Assembly: GCA_021774915.1 (NCBI GenBank)
Contig: JAJFIO010000030.1
Coordinates: forward strand, 1 to 34,790
Direction of reading: 5' to 3'
From: Alphaproteobacteria bacterium
GTDB lineage: Bacteria > Pseudomonadota > Alphaproteobacteria > SMXP01
Length of the DNA: 34,790 nucleotides
Of the stretch, positions 24,605-34,790 are shown piece by piece. A program made the position numbers and the translations under genes. Positions within the stretch are counted from its first letter, which is position 1. Every line of letters starts with the position of its first letter. The notes below the pieces were generated by a model. That model saw only the letters and a program-made list of their open reading frames with translations. It was not told where the DNA came from and did no database searches.

Positions 24605-26290
24605 TCAATCGTTCATGCGATCCAGCTCTGCCAACATTGCATCGCGCATGGCGAATTTCTGGATCTTGCCCGTCACGGTCATCGGATATTCTTGAACAAA
24701 CCGAATATGCCGCGGAATTTTGAAATACGTGATTTGTTCCTTACAGAAGATTTTCACGTCCTCTCCCGACAGATTTTCCCCTTCACGCAGCTGAATCCAC
24801 GCACATACTTCTTCCCCCAATTTTTCATCTGGAATTCCAAAGATCTGTACATCTAGAATTTTTGGATGGGTATAAAGAAACTCTTCAACTTCCCTCGGAT
24901 AAATATTCTCGCCTCCCCTGATAATCATATCCTTGATGCGCCCGACAATCTGGACATAACCTTCTTCATCCATGATGCCCAAATCGCCCGAATGCAGCCA
25001 GCCGCCTGCATCAATCGTGTCACGCGTTCGTTCTTCATCATTCCAGTATCCACGCATCACGGAATACCCACGGGTACAGATTTCTCCCTTTTCTCCGATA
25101 GGCGCAACGCGGCCATCATCCCCCGTTATCTTAACTTCAATACGCGGTACGGCCCTGCCCACTGTGCCCACGCGTTTTTCTATGGGATCTTCAGGCAATG
25201 TCAGATGATTGAGCGGACTGAGCTCAGTCTGCCCATAGCCGATCAGGATGTGTTCCATCCCCATATCATTGATCACGCGGTTCATCACTTCCACCGGGCA
25301 CGGCGCGCCCGCCATAATGCCTGTGCGCAATGACGAAAGATCATATTGATTGAAATCCGGATGATCCAGCTCAGCAATAAACATGGTTGGCACGCCATGA
25401 AGGCCCGTGCACCTTTCATCCTGAACCGCCGCCAAGGTTTCCGACGGGTCAAATCCAGGTCCGGGATAAACGGCTGTTGCGCCATGCGCCACGCACAAGA
25501 GGTTTCCCAAAACCATCCCGAAACAATGGTAAAGCGGGACCGGAATACATAGTCGGTCTTCATGCGTGAACTTCATCCCGCATCCTGAAAGCCATCCATT
25601 ATTGAGGATATTACAGGAGGTTAGCGTCGCGCCTTTCGGACTGCCCGTGGTGCCGCTGGTGAACTGGATATTGATCGGATCATCAGGCAACAATTCATCT
25701 TTCAGTCTCTCCATCTCGCGGATTTCAGACTCTCCACCCAGCCCCAGAACATCCCGATAGTTCAACATGCCCGGCGTATGATCGTCGCCCATGCGAATAA
25801 CAGATTGCAGATAGGGCAGGCGTTTCGCCTTCAGGTTCCCCGGCGCGCAACTCTCAAGCTCCGGCAACAACTCTTGCAACATTTCAATGTATCGGCTGCT
25901 CTTAAACCGGTCCGCCGTGACGATGGCGCGGCATTCAACTTTTTTCAACGCATATTCAAGCTCATACAATCGATAAGCCGGATTGATACAGACAAGGAGT
26001 GCGCCGATTTTCGCCGTGGCAAATTGCGTAACCGCCCATTCGGCACTATTAGGCCCCCAGACTCCTACGCGATCACCAGGTTTAATTCCAAGCTTTAACA
26101 AGCCCGTCGCCAGCGCATCAACCTGTTCTTTATAATCATTATACGTCCAGCGGATATTCTGATGTCTGACGATCAGCGCATCGTTGTCGCCAAAGCGTGC
26201 AACAATATCATCAAAATAATTCCCGATCGTCTCGTAAATCAGGGGCTCATCGCCTGCGCCGCATACATAACTCTTTGTCAACTTAGCCAT
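24605..26290 (-). CDS. AMP-binding fatty acyl-CoA synthetase
   Basis: 561 aa; INIQFTSGTTGSPKGATLTSCNILNN (A3), GYGQTELSP (A5), LHSGDLGIMDEEGYVQIVGRIKDMIIRGGENIYPREVEE, TGKIQKFAMRD. Confidence 0.92.
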   Translation of the reverse strand: MAKLTKSYVCGAGDEPLIYETIGNYFDDIVARFGDNDALIVRHQNIRWTYNDYKEQVDALATGLLKLGIKPGDRVGVWGPNSAEWAVTQFATAKIGALLVCINPAYRLYELEYALKKVECRAIVTADRFKSSRYIEMLQELLPELESCAPGNLKAKRLPYLQSVIRMGDDHTPGMLNYRDVLGLGGESEIREMERLKDELLPDDPINIQFTSGTTGSPKGATLTSCNILNNGWLSGCGMKFTHEDRLCIPVPLYHCFGMVLGNLLCVAHGATAVYPGPGFDPSETLAAVQDERCTGLHGVPTMFIAELDHPDFNQYDLSSLRTGIMAGAPCPVEVMNRVINDMGMEHILIGYGQTELSPLNHLTLPEDPIEKRVGTVGRAVPRIEVKITGDDGRVAPIGEKGEICTRGYSVMRGYWNDEERTRDTIDAGGWLHSGDLGIMDEEGYVQIVGRIKDMIIRGGENIYPREVEEFLYTHPKILDVQIFGIPDEKLGEEVCAWIQLREGENLSGEDVKIFCKEQITYFKIPRHIRFVQEYPMTVTGKIQKFAMRDAMLAELDRMND

Positions 26291-26496
26291 CAGTACACAC
26301 CTTCACCATATGAAGAAGCTTGTTACAAAAAGAAGGGGCACGGGCGGCCCCTTCTTCTCTGGATATCAACAGATCTCCATACGAGATATCTCTCTAACGA
26401 GGCATTACCACCTAGTGCATCACTCGTTATTTTGGAATCACTTGCGATGCTCTCGTTCTTGTTGGTCGCGCCGTTTTAAGCGCAAAACCGCACACA

Positions 26497-26517
26497 CCCA
26501 CGGATCAAGTCCGAGGG
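26497..26517. repeat. Short hairpin CCCACGGA-TCAAG-TCCGAGGG, possible REP-like extragenic element, flanked by GCGCAAAA (26480-26487) ... TTTTGCGC (26523-26530)
   Basis: Direct reading of nested inverted repeats in the intergenic region between the acyl-CoA synthetase and the small secreted protein gene. The inner stem has one A-A mismatch. Confidence 0.5.
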
Positions 26518-26538
26518 CATGCTTTTGCGCACGGCGCT

Positions 26539-26835
26539 CTAGTGCTCAACTGCACATTCATCAAGAACTGCTTTCAGCGCATCACTTGACTGTTCATACG
26601 CTTCATCGTCGTTTGACGCAGTTTTAGTAACCGCCCAGATTTCTTCATTAAGCGCTGCATTAGCATCCCCTTTAGCGCCGAGGCATGAACACTGCGACGC
26701 CACATCGCCCGTACTCTGCCACTCAATAGAGATGCGATTGCACATTTCTTCCGTTGATTCTGCCAAGCTTGGCGAAACAAAAGCAAAAACCGCTCCAAGA
26801 ACTGCACCACAAGTTAGGATATTTTTGATATTCAC
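26539..26835 (-). CDS. Small secreted/periplasmic hypothetical protein with four cysteines in the predicted mature part
   Basis: 98 aa; signal peptide MNIKNILTCGAVLGAVFAFVSPSLAES; mature MCNR, QCSC, DEC. GTG start with upstream GGAG. Confidence 0.65.
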   Translation of the reverse strand: MNIKNILTCGAVLGAVFAFVSPSLAESTEEMCNRISIEWQSTGDVASQCSCLGAKGDANAALNEEIWAVTKTASNDDEAYEQSSDALKAVLDECAVEH

Positions 26836-26956
26836 TTCACAATCTCCATTTTTGCAACTTCCTCAATCCCACGCACAGCATACAGGATCGCCGAAATTAG
26901 AAACAGTTTCAATATAAAACTTCTCCTCTAACAATTTAATTTGTACACGGGCCTAT

Positions 26957-28144
26957 TTAACTGGTGCGTTCAATTGCCATGGCTGTCGCCTCCCCACCGC
27001 CAATGCACAGGCTAGCCACGCCTTTTTTAAGATCGTAGTGCTCGAGCGCCGCGATAAGCGTGACCAATACACGCGCTCCCGAGGCCCCTATGGGATGTCC
27101 CAAAGCGCAGGCCCCGCCATGCACATTGACTTTATCAAAAGGTATATCCAACTCTTTCATCGCGATCATGGGAACCACGGCAAAAGCCTCATTGACCTCG
27201 AAAAGTTCCACATCGCCGGCAGTCCATCCGGTTTTGCCAAACAGCGCCTTGATGGCGCCCACCGGTGCGGAGGTAAATTGCGACGGCTTGCGTGCATGAA
27301 CGCTGTGTCCTCGAATGGTCGCCAGCGGCGTTTTTCCCAGTTTTTCGGCTTGCGAACGGCGCATCAAAACGAGCGCCGCGCCGCCGTCGGAAATCGAACT
27401 GGAATTAGCCGCCGTCACTGTACCCTCGATGGCAAAAGCTGGCCGCAGGGTCGGGATTTTTTCAGGCCGCGCCTTACCCGGCTGCTCATCCACACCGACA
27501 GCCAAGACCCCTTTTCGGGTTTTAACCTCCACCGGCGTGACCTCCCGATCAAAAGCACCGCTTGCAATAGCTTTATTGGCCCGCTCCAGAGATGTAATCG
27601 CATAAGCATCCTGTTCTTCGCGGGTCAATTGATAGGCCTGCGCCGCTTCTTCGGCAAAGCTTCCCATCAAGCGACCCTGCTCATAGGCGTCTTCCAATCC
27701 ATCCAGAAACATATGGTCTTTGACTTCGCCATGGCCAAGGCGTAAACCCCCGCGCACTTTGGGCAGAAGGTAGGGCGCATTGGTCATGCTCTCCATACCG
27801 CCCGCGACCATCACGTCGTGAGAGCCCGCGCAGATTGCATCATGCGCCACCATCACCGCCTGCATACCGGAACCGCACATCTTGTTGACCGTTGTGCACG
27901 GCGTCGCGACATCAAGTCCCGCCCCCAGCGCCGCCTGCCGGGCCGGGGCTTGCCCCAGACCCGCGCTCAGCACAAGGCCCATGATCGCGCTGTCCACGGA
28001 CTGGCCATCCACACCAGCTTGCCCCAGCGCGGCTTTGATCGCCGTGGCGCCCAATTCCGGCGCGGTTATTGACGAGAGTTCACCCTGAAACCCGCCCATG
28101 GGCGTGCGGGCCATGCCGACAATCACGATAGGATCTTCATTCAT
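26957..28144 (-). CDS. Acetyl-CoA C-acyltransferase (thiolase)
   Basis: Thiolase motifs: TVNKMCGSGMQAVMVAHDAI, NVHGGACALGHPIGASGARVLVTL, GVASLCIGGGEATAMAIER. Start refined to MNEDPIVIVG. Confidence 0.93.
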   Translation of the reverse strand: MNEDPIVIVGMARTPMGGFQGELSSITAPELGATAIKAALGQAGVDGQSVDSAIMGLVLSAGLGQAPARQAALGAGLDVATPCTTVNKMCGSGMQAVMVAHDAICAGSHDVMVAGGMESMTNAPYLLPKVRGGLRLGHGEVKDHMFLDGLEDAYEQGRLMGSFAEEAAQAYQLTREEQDAYAITSLERANKAIASGAFDREVTPVEVKTRKGVLAVGVDEQPGKARPEKIPTLRPAFAIEGTVTAANSSSISDGGAALVLMRRSQAEKLGKTPLATIRGHSVHARKPSQFTSAPVGAIKALFGKTGWTAGDVELFEVNEAFAVVPMIAMKELDIPFDKVNVHGGACALGHPIGASGARVLVTLIAALEHYDLKKGVASLCIGGGEATAMAIERTS

Positions 28145-28192
28145 ACCATTTCTCCGTTTTCCAACAGCCCACATCTACATCAAATCGAGATC

Positions 28193-29083
28193 TTAGGCAT
28201 CTCCTTCAAGCATTTTAATGATGCCGGAAAAATCAAGTGCGCCCTGGCCTGCTTCATCGAATTTGGCGTAAACGGACATGGCTTTGGCCCCCAAAGGGGT
28301 CGTCGCGCCGGTTTCCTGCGCTGCATCCTGCGCCAGCTTCAGGTCTTTGAGCATCATCGCCACCGTGAACCCGGGCTGATACTCCCGATTGGCGGGCGAG
28401 GTGGGCACGGGCCCCGGCACCGGGCAATAATTGGTCAAAGACCAGTTCTGCCCTGATGCATTGCTCGCGATGTCAAAAAGCTTTTGCCGTTCAAGCCCCA
28501 ATCTGTCGGCAAGAAGAAAAGCTTCACAGGTGCCGATCATGGTGATGCCGAGAAGCATGTTATTGCACACCTTGGCCGCCTGGCCCGCGCCTGAAGGCCC
28601 GGCATGGATAATTTTTTGCCCCATGGCGCCCAGAATCGGCTGCGCGCGCTCAAATGCTGACTCAGAGCCCCCGACCATGAAAGTGAGCGTGCCCGCTTCA
28701 GCCGCCGCAACGCCGCCGGACACCGGCGCATCCACCATCATCATGCCCGCCTCTTCAGCCACCTCGCCAACCGCGCGGGCAGTGGCGACATCAATGGTCG
28801 AGCAATCCATAAACAGTGTGCCTTGTGATGCGGCGCCGAGGATACCATCTTTACCCTGATAAATCGCGCGCACATGTTCACCGGCGGGCAGCATGGTCAC
28901 GACCGCCTCCACATCAGACACGGCATCAGCCGCATCACTAGCCAATTGCGCCCCTTGGGACCCAAGTTTTTGCATCGCGTCTTCAGACAGATCGAAAACC
29001 TTGAGCTGGTGACCATTTTTGAGAAGGTTCAGCGCCATTGGCCCGCCCATATTCCCGAGCCCTATAAATCCTATCTTAGTCAT
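28193..29083 (-). CDS. mmsB: 3-hydroxyisobutyrate dehydrogenase
   Basis: [55 protein letters not shown]. Start refined to ATG at 29083, with GGAGA upstream. Confidence 0.92.
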   Translation of the reverse strand: MTKIGFIGLGNMGGPMALNLLKNGHQLKVFDLSEDAMQKLGSQGAQLASDAADAVSDVEAVVTMLPAGEHVRAIYQGKDGILGAASQGTLFMDCSTIDVATARAVGEVAEEAGMMMVDAPVSGGVAAAEAGTLTFMVGGSESAFERAQPILGAMGQKIIHAGPSGAGQAAKVCNNMLLGITMIGTCEAFLLADRLGLERQKLFDIASNASGQNWSLTNYCPVPGPVPTSPANREYQPGFTVAMMLKDLKLAQDAAQETGATTPLGAKAMSVYAKFDEAGQGALDFSGIIKMLEGDA

Positions 29084-30149
29084 GGAGATTCTCCTTTTGG
29101 CCAACTTGCCGATCAAAGCGCAACTCATCGGCATCCAGAGATGCAAAATAAGCATCGACAGACGCCGTGGAAACGTCTTCAAGCCGCGCCGGCTTCCAAT
29201 GAGGCGTATTGTCCTTGTCAATCACAATGGCGCGCACACCTTCAAAGAACTCATACCCCTTCATGATCCGGCTGATGATACGGTACTCCAGAGCCATGCA
29301 CTCACGAAAAGAAAGTTTTGCTCCTTCCCGCAATTGTCGCATTGTAATTTTGAGAGACGTGGGAGATTTGGTGCGCAGGGTCATCACCATCTCTTGCGCC
29401 CACGCGTCATCCGATGCTGAAAGGGTATTCAAAATATCTTCGACCGCATTGCCGGCAAAAAATCCATCGATCCTGTTTTGAAGGGCGGCAAGTGAGGCAG
29501 CTCCAGGGTCAACGGCAAACTTTGCACACATCCGGTCCACATCCCCGCCCGCGCTCAAATTCCGCAAAAGTTCGTCTTGGGCATGACTGGGCGCATAGTG
29601 CGTCGCAATCCCGGCGTAAAGACAATCCGCCACCTTCAGCCGTGCGCCCGTCAGACCGAGATAACACCCAAGTTCCCCGCGCAGCCGCGGCAGAAAATAC
29701 GTCCCGCCAACATCCGGGATCAGGCCGATGCCGGTTTCCGGCATGGCAAACAGAGTACTCTCGCCTGCAATGCGGTACTTCCCGTGGACGGAAACGCCAA
29801 CCCCGCCTCCCATTACAATTCCATCGATAAAGGCGATATAGGGTTTGGTATATTCCTTGATGAACGTATTCAGCCGATATTCATGCCAATAAAATTGCAT
29901 GACATCCTTTGAGCCTGCCTGCCCCGCCTCGTAAAGCGATCTGATATCACCACCCGCACAAAAAGCCCGGGTGCCGGCACCGCGTATCGCCACCGCGTGC
30001 ACATGTTCCGCTTGCGCCCAGCGCTCAAGCTGATCCAACAGTGCCAAGCACATGTTTGTCGTCAGAGCATTCAGCGCGTCCGGCCGGTTCAAGGTGATCA
30101 GACCCAGCGCGCCCATTTCCTCAAACAGAATGTCGGCATCTGCATTCAT
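29076..30149 (-). CDS. 3-hydroxyisobutyryl-CoA hydrolase (enoyl-CoA hydratase/isomerase family)
   Basis: 357 aa; [84 protein letters not shown] is HIBCH-like. Confidence 0.9.
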
Positions 30150-31285
30150 GGCTTCAACAGGTTCCGGGCGATAATCATCCGCATAATCTCATTCGTGCCT
30201 TCAAGAATCTGATGAACGCGCACATCCCGCAAATGGCGCTCAATCGGATAATCTTTGAGGTAGCCATAACCACCATGTATTTGCAGCGCCTCATTGACCA
30301 CTTCGAATCCGGTATCCGTCGCCAGACGCTTGGCCATGGCGCAGTACATGCTGGCCTTCGGATCTTTATTCTCTAATTTATACGCCGCCTGATAGAGAAG
30401 CAGCCGGGCGGCTTCCAACTCAGTCGCCATATCGGCCAGTTTGAATTGCAGCGCTTGAAAGTGGCTGAGCTTGCGGCCAAATTGTTCGCGCTCCAGCATA
30501 TAGGCCCTGGCTGCCTCCAAGGCCGCTCCCGCTGTTCCCAAAGAGCAGGCCCCGATATTGAGCCGCCCGCCATCAAGTCCCTGTAAGGCAATTTTAAAAC
30601 CGTCTCCCTCGGCTCCGATAAGGTTGGCCACGGGCACACGGGCATTTTCAAAAATAACTTGCGTCGTCGGCTGAGAATTCCAGCCCATCTTGCGCTCTTC
30701 GGCGCCAAAGCTAAGGCCTGCTGCGCCCTTTTCAACCACAAGACAAGAGATGCCCTTAGCCCCGTCGCCGCCCGTCCGCACCATGCAGACATAGACATCG
30801 GAGTGGCCGCCGCCTGAAATAAACGCCTTCGTGCCGTTAAGGATATAGTCATCGCCCTCGCGCACGGCTTTGGTTCTCAAAGAGGCAGCATCGGACCCCG
30901 CGCCGGGTTCCGTCAGGCAATAGCTGGCGATCAATTCCATCGTGGTGAGGCGCGGCAACCAGTGGCGGCGCTGCGCTTCAGAGCCAAAGCAGTCGATCAT
31001 CCACGACGCCATATTGTGAATGGAAATAAACGCCGCCGTCGACGTGCAGCCCGCCGACAGAGCTTCAAAAATCAGCGCCGCGTCAAGGCGGCTCAAATTT
31101 GATCCACCAACGTCCTCTTTTACATAGATTCCACCAAAGCCCAGCACGGCCGCCTCGCGCAATGTCTCCACGGGGAAAAACTTGTCCTCATCCCACTCGG
31201 CCGCGAAAGGCGCCAGGCGATTTTCAGAAAACTGCCGCGCCGTCTCCTGAAACGCCCGCTGGTCTTCATTCAAGTCAAAATGCAT
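30146..31285 (-). CDS. Acyl-CoA dehydrogenase, probably isobutyryl-CoA dehydrogenase by context
   Basis: 379 aa; [80 protein letters not shown]. Confidence 0.9.
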
Positions 31286-31306
31286 TGCATGCCTCCACCA
31301 GCCTAG

Positions 31307-32806
31307 CTATTTCATCGTCGGAATCACGAATGATGCGTCTTCCCTCTGACCTTGTGGCCAGCGTGACGTGACCGTCTTGATTTTTGTGTAAAAACGCACG
31401 CCTTCCGGCCCGTGCTGATTGACATCGCCAAAGGCCGAGCGCTTCCACCCGCCAAAGGTATGATAGGCCAATGGCACGGGGATGGGCACATTAATACCGA
31501 CCATACCGACATTCACCCGAGAGGCAAACTCACGCGCCGTATCGCCATCGCGCGTGAAGATCGCCACACCGTTTCCGTATTGATGTTCAGAGGGCAGGCG
31601 CAGCGCTTCTTCAAAATCTTTGGCCCGCACAATCTGAAGGACAGGGCCAAATATTTCTTGCTCGTAGGTCACCATATCAGTGGTGACCCGGTCGAACAGG
31701 CATGGCCCCATAAAGAAACCATTCTCGAAGCCCTGCATGGAAAAATCACGCCCGTCGATGAGAAGTTCTGCACCCTCTTCAACACCTTTGGCGACATAAT
31801 TTTTGATTTTATCCAGATGCGCCGCGCTCACCACCGGCCCATATTGGGCTTCGGCATCGGTTGAAATTCCAACTTTGAGATTTTTGATCCGTGGGGTGAG
31901 CGCTTCGATCAACCGATCGGCAGTTTCATCGCCCACCGGCACCGCTACCGGCAGCGCCATGCAGCGTTCACCGGCCGATCCATAGGCCGAGCCCAGAAAA
32001 TCATTGACGACCTGTTCCATATCCGCATCAGGCATGACAATGCCGTGGTTCTTCGCCCCGCCCATGGCCTGCACGCGCTTACCATGGGCCGTGCCTTGAG
32101 CAAAAACATATTGAGCAATATCCGATGACCCAACAAAGCTGACCGCTTTAATATCAGGATCGGTCAAGATGGCATCGACAGCTTGCTTGTCCCCATTGAC
32201 CACGTTCAAGACCCCGGCCGGCGCGCCCGCCTCCATGAACAGCTCCGCCAGACGCAAGGGCACGCTCGGATCCTTTTCAGATGGCTTGCAGATAAATGTG
32301 TTTCCGCAGGCAATGGCCACACCGAACATCCACATCGGAATCATGGCGGGAAAATTGAACGGCGTGATTCCCGCCACCACGCCCAAAGGCTGGCGCATGG
32401 AATAAATATCAATGCCGGGCCCGGCGCCTTCCGTGAACTCGCCTTTGAGCAAATGAGGTATCCCGCAGGCAAACTCGATAACCTCAAGCCCGCGCTGAAT
32501 GTCACCCTTGGAATCGGCGACAACCTTGCCATGCTCGGCAGATAACATGTGCGCCAGCTCGTCAATATTCTGCTCCAGCAAGTCTTTGAACCTGAACATG
32601 ACGCGGGCGCGGCGCTGGGGGTTCATAGCTGACCAGGCTCCAAACGCGCTTAAAGCTGCCTCGACCGCTTTGCGCATTTCTTGTGCATTCGCTAACGGGA
32701 CTTTGGCTTGAACTTCGCCCGTATTGGGGTTGTACACATCGCCAAAGCGGCCACTGTCGCCGCTCACCCGCTCCCCATTGATAAAATGCATCAATTCTCT
32801 AGCCAT
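31307..32806 (-). CDS. mmsA: CoA-acylating methylmalonate-semialdehyde dehydrogenase
   Basis: MARELMHFINGERVSGDSGRFGDVYNPNTGEVQAKVPLA; ITPFNFPAMIPMWMFGVAIACGNTFICKPSEKDPSVPL; GSAGERCMALPVAVPVG. Start refined to ATG at 32806 with GGGAG upstream. Confidence 0.94.
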   Translation of the reverse strand: MARELMHFINGERVSGDSGRFGDVYNPNTGEVQAKVPLANAQEMRKAVEAALSAFGAWSAMNPQRRARVMFRFKDLLEQNIDELAHMLSAEHGKVVADSKGDIQRGLEVIEFACGIPHLLKGEFTEGAGPGIDIYSMRQPLGVVAGITPFNFPAMIPMWMFGVAIACGNTFICKPSEKDPSVPLRLAELFMEAGAPAGVLNVVNGDKQAVDAILTDPDIKAVSFVGSSDIAQYVFAQGTAHGKRVQAMGGAKNHGIVMPDADMEQVVNDFLGSAYGSAGERCMALPVAVPVGDETADRLIEALTPRIKNLKVGISTDAEAQYGPVVSAAHLDKIKNYVAKGVEEGAELLIDGRDFSMQGFENGFFMGPCLFDRVTTDMVTYEQEIFGPVLQIVRAKDFEEALRLPSEHQYGNGVAIFTRDGDTAREFASRVNVGMVGINVPIPVPLAYHTFGGWKRSAFGDVNQHGPEGVRFYTKIKTVTSRWPQGQREDASFVIPTMK

Positions 32807-32893
32807 GGTCTCCCTTTCCCACATTTCAGCAAAAACAAGAAATGAGATGTCTTAAAGCTTGAATTTTATCGTGCAAATACGCCAATGTAACCT

Positions 32894-32913: not shown

Positions 32914-32952
32914 ATGCATTTTTGCAGTCACTGTTCTTTCAAGGATACGCTC

Positions 32953-33858
32953 ATGCAACGGCAAAATCTCAACTGGGACGATTTGCGGGTCTTTCTGGAA
33001 GTCAGCCGTACCCAATTGCTTTCCAAAGCCGCCAGCCGTCTCAATCTCGATCAAACGACAGTCAGCCGACGCTTGCAACGTCTGGAAGATAAATTGTCCG
33101 TGCAACTTTTTGAACGCTCGCGCCGTGGGCACAAACTGACCCAAGCCGGCTGCGCATTAAGGCCTTACGCCGAGAAGGTGGAATCGGCAACTTTTTCGGC
33201 GCAGGAATCTCTAACTGGAACGGATCAGGCCCTCTCAGGCATGATCCGGGTGAATGTGGCAGACGGGTTTGGCGCCCATTTTGTTGCCCCGCGCCTTGCC
33301 GAATTCACATCGCTTCACCCAGCCATCGAGGTTGAATTGGTGTCCAATCTCAATTTCCTCAACGTCTCCCAGAGAGAAACCGACATTGCCGTGCATCTGG
33401 CGCGCCCTTCTGCGGACAATTTGATTGTTCAAAAACTCACCGATTATCACTTGAAACTCTATGCGTCGAAAGACTATCTCGCAAAATCAGAGCCGATCAA
33501 TGGTCCTAATGATCTGAGCGGGCATACCTTTGTCGGCTATATTGATGATTTCATTTACGCCTCTGAATTGCGCTATATGGAGGACACTGTCTTGAATGAG
33601 CCTTCACGCGTGAGGCTCTCCAGCACCGTGGCGCAATATCATGCGGTGAGAAACGGCGCCGGGCTGTGCATTCTGCCATGTTTCATGGCGCATGGAGATT
33701 CTGCTCTGGTTCCGCTGCTGGAAGAGGTCGTCCTGGTGACACGCACGTTCTGGCTGATCATGCCTAAAGACCTCAAAAATGTCGCCCGCGTGCAATCATT
33801 CGCCGGTTTTCTCACCCGCATTTGCCAAAGGGAAAAATCGCTCCTTCTCGGGACTTGA
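32953..33858 (+). CDS. LysR-family transcriptional regulator
   Basis: MQRQNLNWDDLRVFLEVSRTQLLSKAASRLNLDQTTVSRRLQRLEDKLSVQLFERSRRG. Start refined to ATG at 32953; the ORF track begins at 32914. Confidence 0.9.
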   Translation: MQRQNLNWDDLRVFLEVSRTQLLSKAASRLNLDQTTVSRRLQRLEDKLSVQLFERSRRGHKLTQAGCALRPYAEKVESATFSAQESLTGTDQALSGMIRVNVADGFGAHFVAPRLAEFTSLHPAIEVELVSNLNFLNVSQRETDIAVHLARPSADNLIVQKLTDYHLKLYASKDYLAKSEPINGPNDLSGHTFVGYIDDFIYASELRYMEDTVLNEPSRVRLSSTVAQYHAVRNGAGLCILPCFMAHGDSALVPLLEEVVLVTRTFWLIMPKDLKNVARVQSFAGFLTRICQREKSLLLGT

Positions 33859-33929: not shown

Positions 33930-33945
33930 TGTGACGGCCGTCACA
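33930..33945. promoter_or_regulatory. Perfect CRP-type palindrome TGTGA-CGGCCG-TCACA
   Basis: Direct reading: tgtgacggccgtcaca is a 16-bp perfect dyad. A hexamer TAAGTT at 33967-33972 would give a centre-to-TSS distance near 41.5. Confidence 0.7.
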
Positions 33946-34006
33946 TCGCGAAAAACACCCCCGTCCTAAGTTGTCCTTAACGAAACACACACCAAGGGGA
34001 CGACAC

Positions 34007-34084
34007 ATGTTGGGACATATTTTTTCACTCATTCTTTCCATCGGCATCATGACTGGTTCGTTTTCACTTTATTTCCTGTTTTAA
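34007..34084 (+). CDS. Candidate small membrane protein, 25 aa
   Basis: ATG...TAA encodes MLGHIFSLILSIGIMTGSFSLYFLF. SD AAGGGGA at 33994-34000, 6-nt spacing; flanked by CRP-like box and terminator. Below the ORF-track length cutoff. Confidence 0.55.
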   Translation: MLGHIFSLILSIGIMTGSFSLYFLF

Positions 34085-34135
34085 AAATCAATTCCTCATA
34101 ACCCCGAGACCCCCCAGCCGCGCATAGCGGCGCCA

Positions 34136-34169
34136 GAAAGGGCGCTCTTCCCGGGAAGAGCGTCCTTTC
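34136..34169 (+). terminator. Long inverted repeat / intrinsic terminator
   Basis: GAAAGG-G-CGCTCTTCCCGGGAAGAGCG-T-CCTTTC: perfect 20-bp core palindrome extended by 6 bp with one G-T (G-U) position. T-rich downstream on + strand; may act on both convergent units. Confidence 0.7.
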
Positions 34170-34190
34170 ACTTTTCTCTTCGAGATTTTT

Positions 34191-34790
34191 TCAGTCTTCT
34201 TCTGAAGCCCGACCAGAAAGCGCCACAAGCGCATCCCTTTCATCGATATAAAGGGTCCGTCCTTTTTTCTCGACAACCCCCTCGCCCGCCAACTGGCTGA
34301 TCACACGGGCGACCGTCTCTCGCGTGGTGCTGACTTTCGCGGCCAAATTGCTCTGTGTCGGCAGGGGGTAAATCATCCATCGCCCGCGCATCACGGGATC
34401 GGGCGCGGCCAAACGCAATAGCTCGGCATAGATGCGCTGATGCGCCCCAAGGGTGCTGAGATCCATGATGCGCTCATCATTGGTGCGAATGATGGCAGCC
34501 AGCTTATGAAGTACGCGCAAAGCAATATCAGGATAGCGGCACAGAACACCCTCAAAAGCTTCAGGGGTCAACGAAGCAAGAAGACAAGGTTTGACTGCGA
34601 CGACATGAGCCGAGCGCGGCTTTTTGTCGATCGCCGCCAGTTCGCCAAAATATTCGCCTTCTTCCATGATCGTATAGGCGATCTCGCGCCCGCTGGCTGA
34701 AAAATTGACAATGCTCACAGCCCCCTCAACTACGAAGAAAACTTCCCTTCTGGTGCTTTTCCGGGCGAGAATCTCTTCGCCTTTGGCAAA
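34191..34790 (-). CDS. Crp/Fnr-family transcriptional regulator (5' end outside window)
   Basis: Frame stays open to the window end (FAKGEEILARKSTRREVFFVVEGAVSIVNFSASGREI...). HTH SNLAAKVSTTRETVARVISQLAGEGVVEKKGRTLYI has a CRP-like RETVxR recognition helix. Confidence 0.9.
   Translation of the reverse strand, partial: FAKGEEILARKSTRREVFFVVEGAVSIVNFSASGREIAYTIMEEGEYFGELAAIDKKPRSAHVVAVKPCLLASLTPEAFEGVLCRYPDIALRVLHKLAAIIRTNDERIMDLSTLGAHQRIYAELLRLAAPDPVMRGRWMIYPLPTQSNLAAKVSTTRETVARVISQLAGEGVVEKKGRTLYIDERDALVALSGRASEED

Follow-up and report, generated by a model that had tools for sequence, protein, structure and literature searches.

A family of 25-residue hydrophobic microproteins in one group of alphaproteobacteria, with predicted CRP-activated promoters on some of its genes

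The stretch of DNA analysed here, hereafter the window, comprises 34,790 nucleotides of an alphaproteobacterial draft genome of 3.04 Mb (G000). At 34007–34084 on the plus strand it contains a 25-codon open reading frame, MLGHIFSLILSIGIMTGSFSLYFLF, which sequence comparison identifies as a real protein-coding gene and as a member of a newly recognised microprotein family that none of the curated libraries searched contains. Some copies of the family, the window's included, appear from their promoters to be activated by the cAMP signalling protein Crp. The product is probably a single-span membrane microprotein, made under cAMP-CRP activation, that packs on another helix belonging either to a partner protein or to a second molecule of its own kind. 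The gene is so short that standard annotation would miss it, as the first-pass annotation of this DNA had suspected, and it is thanks to paralogues and relatives that a coding unit of such dimensions and its promoter can be demonstrated from sequence alone. That initial reading overlooked the paralogues of the ORF elsewhere in the same genome and the identity of the flanking minus-strand gene, which is crp.

The locus is compact, and all the elements listed at first reading are present. The CRP-type operator TGTGACGGCCGTCACA (33930–33945; no strand assigned) matches the palindrome TGTGA-N6-TCACA exactly and is the sole exact box in the window. The −10 element TAAGTT (33967–33972, plus strand) conforms to TAnnnT and lies 21 bp 3′ of the box, at the class II spacing that had been suggested, and the Shine–Dalgarno sequence AAGGGGA (33994–34000, plus strand) is positioned 6 nt 5′ of the ATG at 34007. 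Downstream of the ORF two structures on the plus strand are predicted by folding: a small 3′UTR hairpin, GCCGC-gcata-GCGGC (34117–34131), and an intrinsic terminator with a 15-bp stem followed by ACTTTTCTCTT (34136–34169). The crp gene comes next in convergent orientation (34191–34790, minus strand) and is cut by the contig end; possibly the terminator serves this gene as well. As the terminator and a convergent gene come 3′ of it, the microprotein gene is monocistronic. Comparison with a congeneric genome (G001) delineates a conserved block that consists of box, core promoter, 5′UTR, ORF, hairpin and terminator. Identity amounts to 14/16 in the box, where both changes fall inside N6, 26/27 in the 5′UTR, 75/78 in the ORF, 14/15 in the small hairpin (stem intact, loop altered) and 30/34 in the terminator (stem intact). 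Outside these parts it is 23/39 on the upstream side, 17/32 within the 3′ linker and 12/31 farther on.

The coding nature of the ORF emerges from its pattern of substitution. The protein of G001 is identical to that of the window (100%), with three synonymous and no non-synonymous changes. A whole-genome peptide search disclosed related 25-codon ORFs in G000, G001, G002 and G003, and a more distant copy, MVGQIVSMAVSFSVMAASIALYLIY, is harboured by G004. The family stands at 13 complete copies plus one, the third copy of G000, that is cut at a contig end; all five genomes of a single GTDB family contain members, so that several copies are found within one group of alphaproteobacteria. Every one of the 13 complete copies is exactly 25 codons long and is preceded by an SD-like sequence. 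Differences among them number 680, 421 and 1046 at codon positions 1, 2 and 3, mean pN over mean pS is 0.46, and pN is lower than pS in 77 of the 78 pairs. The conservation and dN/dS tests proposed by the first-pass annotation have hence been carried out with a positive outcome: the frame is kept among the relatives, and so is the exact box upstream of five copies.

Profile A1, constructed from the members recovered by the peptide search, scored members of the GTDB family at E 1e-13 to 1e-9; full-length profile matches (E 1e-13 to 1e-8) were restricted to that family, and approximately 380 further genomes of the class yielded no credible member. The G004 copy, which has an SD and exactly 25 codons, reached E 0.09 with A1 and was then added to profile A2, so that its later E-value is by construction. 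A degenerate DNA pattern applied to 84,980 species, which would miss members as divergent as the G004 copy, retrieved no credible member outside the GTDB family: its matches were three metagenome-assembled genomes (Alphaproteobacteria bacterium OFTM124, PL25a_bin.55 and N075bin68) and two loci in named bacteria (L065 and L066) that were dismissed as chance, their ORF lengths and sequences being different. Weak profile matches in G270, G198, G239, G149, contig C27 of G001 and similar cases were discarded as partial, located in long ORFs, or devoid of a start and an SD. The second short ORFs situated behind the crp2 copy of G001 and the crp copy of G002 were also set aside: they are mutually unlike, and no homologue of the G001 one turned up in the other genomes searched. 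Among the curated resources, Pfam and PADLOC contain no match for the family, NCBIfam none for the three members tested and PHROGs nothing credible (E 0.04–0.2 at best), and profile A2 found none among all PDB chains at E≤10.

Synonymous divergence in the window copy is much lower than in its neighbours. Between G000 and G001 dS is 0.20 for this copy, 0.81 for the flanking LysR gene and 0.99 for the flanking crp, and three synonymous changes are seen where 8–9 are expected over ∼17 synonymous sites (p ∼0.006, from a simple hand-worked binomial). This low dS hints at some extra nucleotide-level constraint, which is left outside the account of a CRP-activated membrane microprotein. Leu2 is encoded by TTA or TTG in every copy that has leucine there and Phe6 by TTT in every copy that has phenylalanine there; combined with the window copy's low dS, this usage is a hint that codons or RNA are under constraint at the 5′ end.

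Three further readings were weighed. The scarcity of synonymous changes would suit a dual-function or mainly regulatory RNA, in which an sRNA activity resides in the transcript under CRP control or in its stable 3′ end. Such a 3′ end would offer two hairpins together with single-stranded C-rich sequence, conservation in G001 extends to the hairpin and the terminator but not to the 3′ linker, and the transcript of the window copy folds with z = −2.5. However, most of this fold is explained by an ordinary terminator, Rfam includes no family matching the RNA, and what the other copies visibly share is the 25-codon frame, not the 3′ parts; this reading is accordingly given a low probability. As the coding frame is what the paralogues share, the purely non-coding Crp/Fnr-controlled sRNA envisaged by the first-pass annotation is unlikely, and the operator is of the CRP type, not the Fnr type. 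What persists of that proposal is a possible second function of an mRNA endowed with a stable 3′ end. A few copies are located just upstream of larger genes (GST-like in G002, DUF1287, NAD-glutamate dehydrogenase), an arrangement reminiscent of a leader peptide or of translation-coupled regulation of the gene that follows. This role is very improbable: the window gene has no downstream target, since what comes after it is a strong terminator and then a convergent gene, and the sequence exhibits helical-face conservation rather than regulatory codon runs. Short ORFs are frequent, and one might have arisen by chance beside a genuine CRP site, but the family-wide conservation of frame and the invariant length contradict this notion and leave it with hardly any credibility.

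Exact TGTGA-N6-TCACA boxes are scarce: the 3.04 Mb of G000 contain three, and a reversed-pattern control gave one. Five family copies in four genomes, the window's among them, carry such a box 77–87 bp 5′ of the ATG, each with a TAnnnT sequence that starts exactly 21 bp after the box; in 200,000 shuffles of the spacers no common TAnnnT offset was ever obtained. When all exact boxes of the five genomes are considered, TAnnnT occurs at +21 bp in 13 of 58 oriented sites and at any other offset in 0–3, only one of two overlapping loci having been used in this set to prevent double counting. The 13 sites include the five peptide promoters, and the other eight include several that precede very short ORFs. 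Box and −10 spacing together constitute, at the level of sequence, a class II CRP geometry as defined in PMC12360894, with the box centred at −41.5 and transcription predicted to start near 33979, in agreement with the promoter type proposed at first reading. The arrangement shares with enterobacterial class II promoters (PMC12360894) the TGTGA-N6-TCACA box over the −35 region and the fixed distance to the −10; it differs in that the Crp is alphaproteobacterial and encoded near a CHASE2-class III cyclase, and in that exact sites are few, several of them ahead of very short ORFs. No CRP box precedes eight of the complete copies or the truncated one (at least three mismatches; none within two), and cAMP control is therefore not a family-defining trait.

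The candidate regulator is encoded next door. The convergent gene specifies a protein with cNMP_binding (PF00027) and HTH_Crp_2 (PF13545) domains, in which the motifs FGELAAIDKKPRSA and TTRETVARV are discernible; across the four genomes formed by the window's and those of the orthologues in G001, G002 and G003, the FGELAAID-K-RS pocket and the RETVAR recognition helix are invariant. R-E-x-x-x-R is the pattern by which E. coli CRP reads TGTGA, and the window Crp has the same one. The window contig ends inside crp and shares an exact overlap of 141 bp with the start of contig C51, on which crp is followed by one further gene and then by a CHASE2-class III nucleotide cyclase. This neighbourhood recurs in G002 and G003, and in G001 crp and the same intervening gene are present as far as the contig reaches. 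Class III cyclases produce cAMP or cGMP; cAMP is assumed here to be the effector. The microprotein family is in this way tied to a Crp-cyclase module, in a lineage represented here, among named genomes, by metagenome assemblies. Copies on the crp side are found in G000 and G001. In G000, G001 and G003 a further set adjoins genes for NAD-glutamate dehydrogenase and DUF1287, and in G000 and G001 yet another neighbours a short-chain dehydrogenase gene, the dehydrogenase being identified by Pfam in G000 and by length and position elsewhere. The remaining copies have unrelated neighbours. Overall, the genes adjoining the copies examined are regulators, dehydrogenases, peptidases and the crp/cyclase pair, and as they vary between copies they point to no particular partner.

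The peptides are markedly hydrophobic, with GRAVY values of 1.3–2.1 across the family, no acidic residues and position 4 taken by H, R or Q. Column conservation is most strongly periodic at 100 degrees (shuffle p ∼0.003) and defines a face composed of G3, F6, S7, S11, I14, M15, S18, L21 and Y22. Because conservation follows this helical period, it points to a single predicted membrane helix with one docking face. The window peptide can be described as a conserved, hydrophobic, putative single helix well within 50 residues, whose translation we infer from the substitution pattern. The small membrane protein suggested by the first-pass annotation is upheld to this extent, as frame, length and helical-face conservation make a membrane location probable; its example of a respiratory-complex accessory subunit did not survive, since no respiratory genes were recognised beside the copies examined and no similarity was detected to solved chains, those of solved oxidase small subunits included.

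According to the favoured account, the cyclic nucleotide would rise, a CHASE2-class III cyclase gene being located near crp; Crp would then bind 33930–33945 and recruit RNA polymerase at 33967–33972, and a short mRNA spanning ∼33979–34175 would be made and ended by the hairpin at 34136–34169. The peptide would insert into the inner membrane as one helix, probably with its N-terminus inside, given H, R or Q at position 4. Its conserved face would pack on another membrane helix, most likely that of a membrane protein whose activity the peptide adjusts or, alternatively, that of a second copy or paralogue. The outcome would be a membrane adjusted to the nutrient state.

A serious rival, to which we assign a lesser though appreciable likelihood, is a starvation-induced microprotein that homo-oligomerises and, needing no dedicated partner protein, reduces both membrane potential and growth rate; it might belong to a type I toxin-antitoxin pair as one of the two components. 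The precedent is YohP of the E. coli inner membrane, a 27-residue peptide produced during starvation, which dimerises via a glycine motif and reduces the membrane potential (PMC12719787). The present family has near-identical size, one hydrophobic helix, a small-residue face suited to self-association, a putative link to starvation and several dispersed copies per genome; its multiple paralogues and the class II CRP promoter on some copies set it apart from YohP. Against a toxin-like peptide, a consensus scan of the region, admittedly a weak test, detected no antisense promoter-like site, the SD-containing 5′UTR measures only ∼28 nt, and fold-back of the 3′UTR onto the SD is not above shuffles in most copies. 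The C-rich fold-back found in some type I toxin mRNAs was discarded for the window copy too, on the same measure. Moreover, Pfam and PADLOC are silent, the PHROGs scores are those given above, and the placements beside crp and beside glutamate dehydrogenase persist across genomes rather than being patchy. Docking on a partner is preferred over a self-acting peptide because fixed loci persist and no antisense signs were seen. A more speculative extension, regarded as rather doubtful, is that paralogous 25-residue helices on different promoters represent a lineage-specific output of cAMP and other signals, swapping in one complex or hetero-oligomerising. If so, with one paralogue wired to Crp, one beside glutamate dehydrogenase and others elsewhere, the cell would retune a membrane function by changing which helix gets made. 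In any event, the paralogues offer ready material to learn which positions count in a minimal membrane helix.

Partner docking has parallels in CydX and AcrZ (PMC4325964, PMC7267776), single helices of fewer than 50 residues: like them, the window peptide could adjust a larger membrane complex, but it is shorter, has no adjoining partner gene and resembles no PDB chain. Another tiny peptide in a CRP circuit is the 15-residue SpfP encoded on Spot 42 RNA (cited in PMC11955535). SpfP regulates CRP, whereas the window peptide, a hydrophobic one, is encoded by a predicted target of CRP.

Several further features were noted. In the window, an acyl-CoA/branched-chain degradation cluster (24605–32824, minus strand), comprising genes for aldehyde dehydrogenase, acyl-CoA dehydrogenase, hydratase, a hydroxyisobutyrate-type dehydrogenase, thiolase and an AMP-binding ligase, is divergent from the LysR gene at 32914–33858. 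On contig C61 of G002 (L077, 1776, plus strand) an exact CRP box and a class II −10, TACAGT, precede ORFs of 29, 43 and 63 residues, the first two hydrophobic, and a second class II-type box is situated 281 bp upstream. On contig C71 of the same genome (L107, 1090, plus strand) a CRP box and class II −10 are followed by a 33-residue hydrophobic ORF (MSFWNAIELV...) for which the other four genomes offer no homologue. G000 and G001 share orthologous CRP promoters of class II (L121 and L120; minus strand, reverse-strand positions 863 and 1617), placed to drive a gene whose product has a signal-like segment at its N-terminus (MAGFIKTLIALGLSILALIMPGAGKAEE...). Finally, on contig C4 of G004 (L135, 2079) an exact CRP box lies between divergent crp-like and cyclase genes, which suggests autoregulation.
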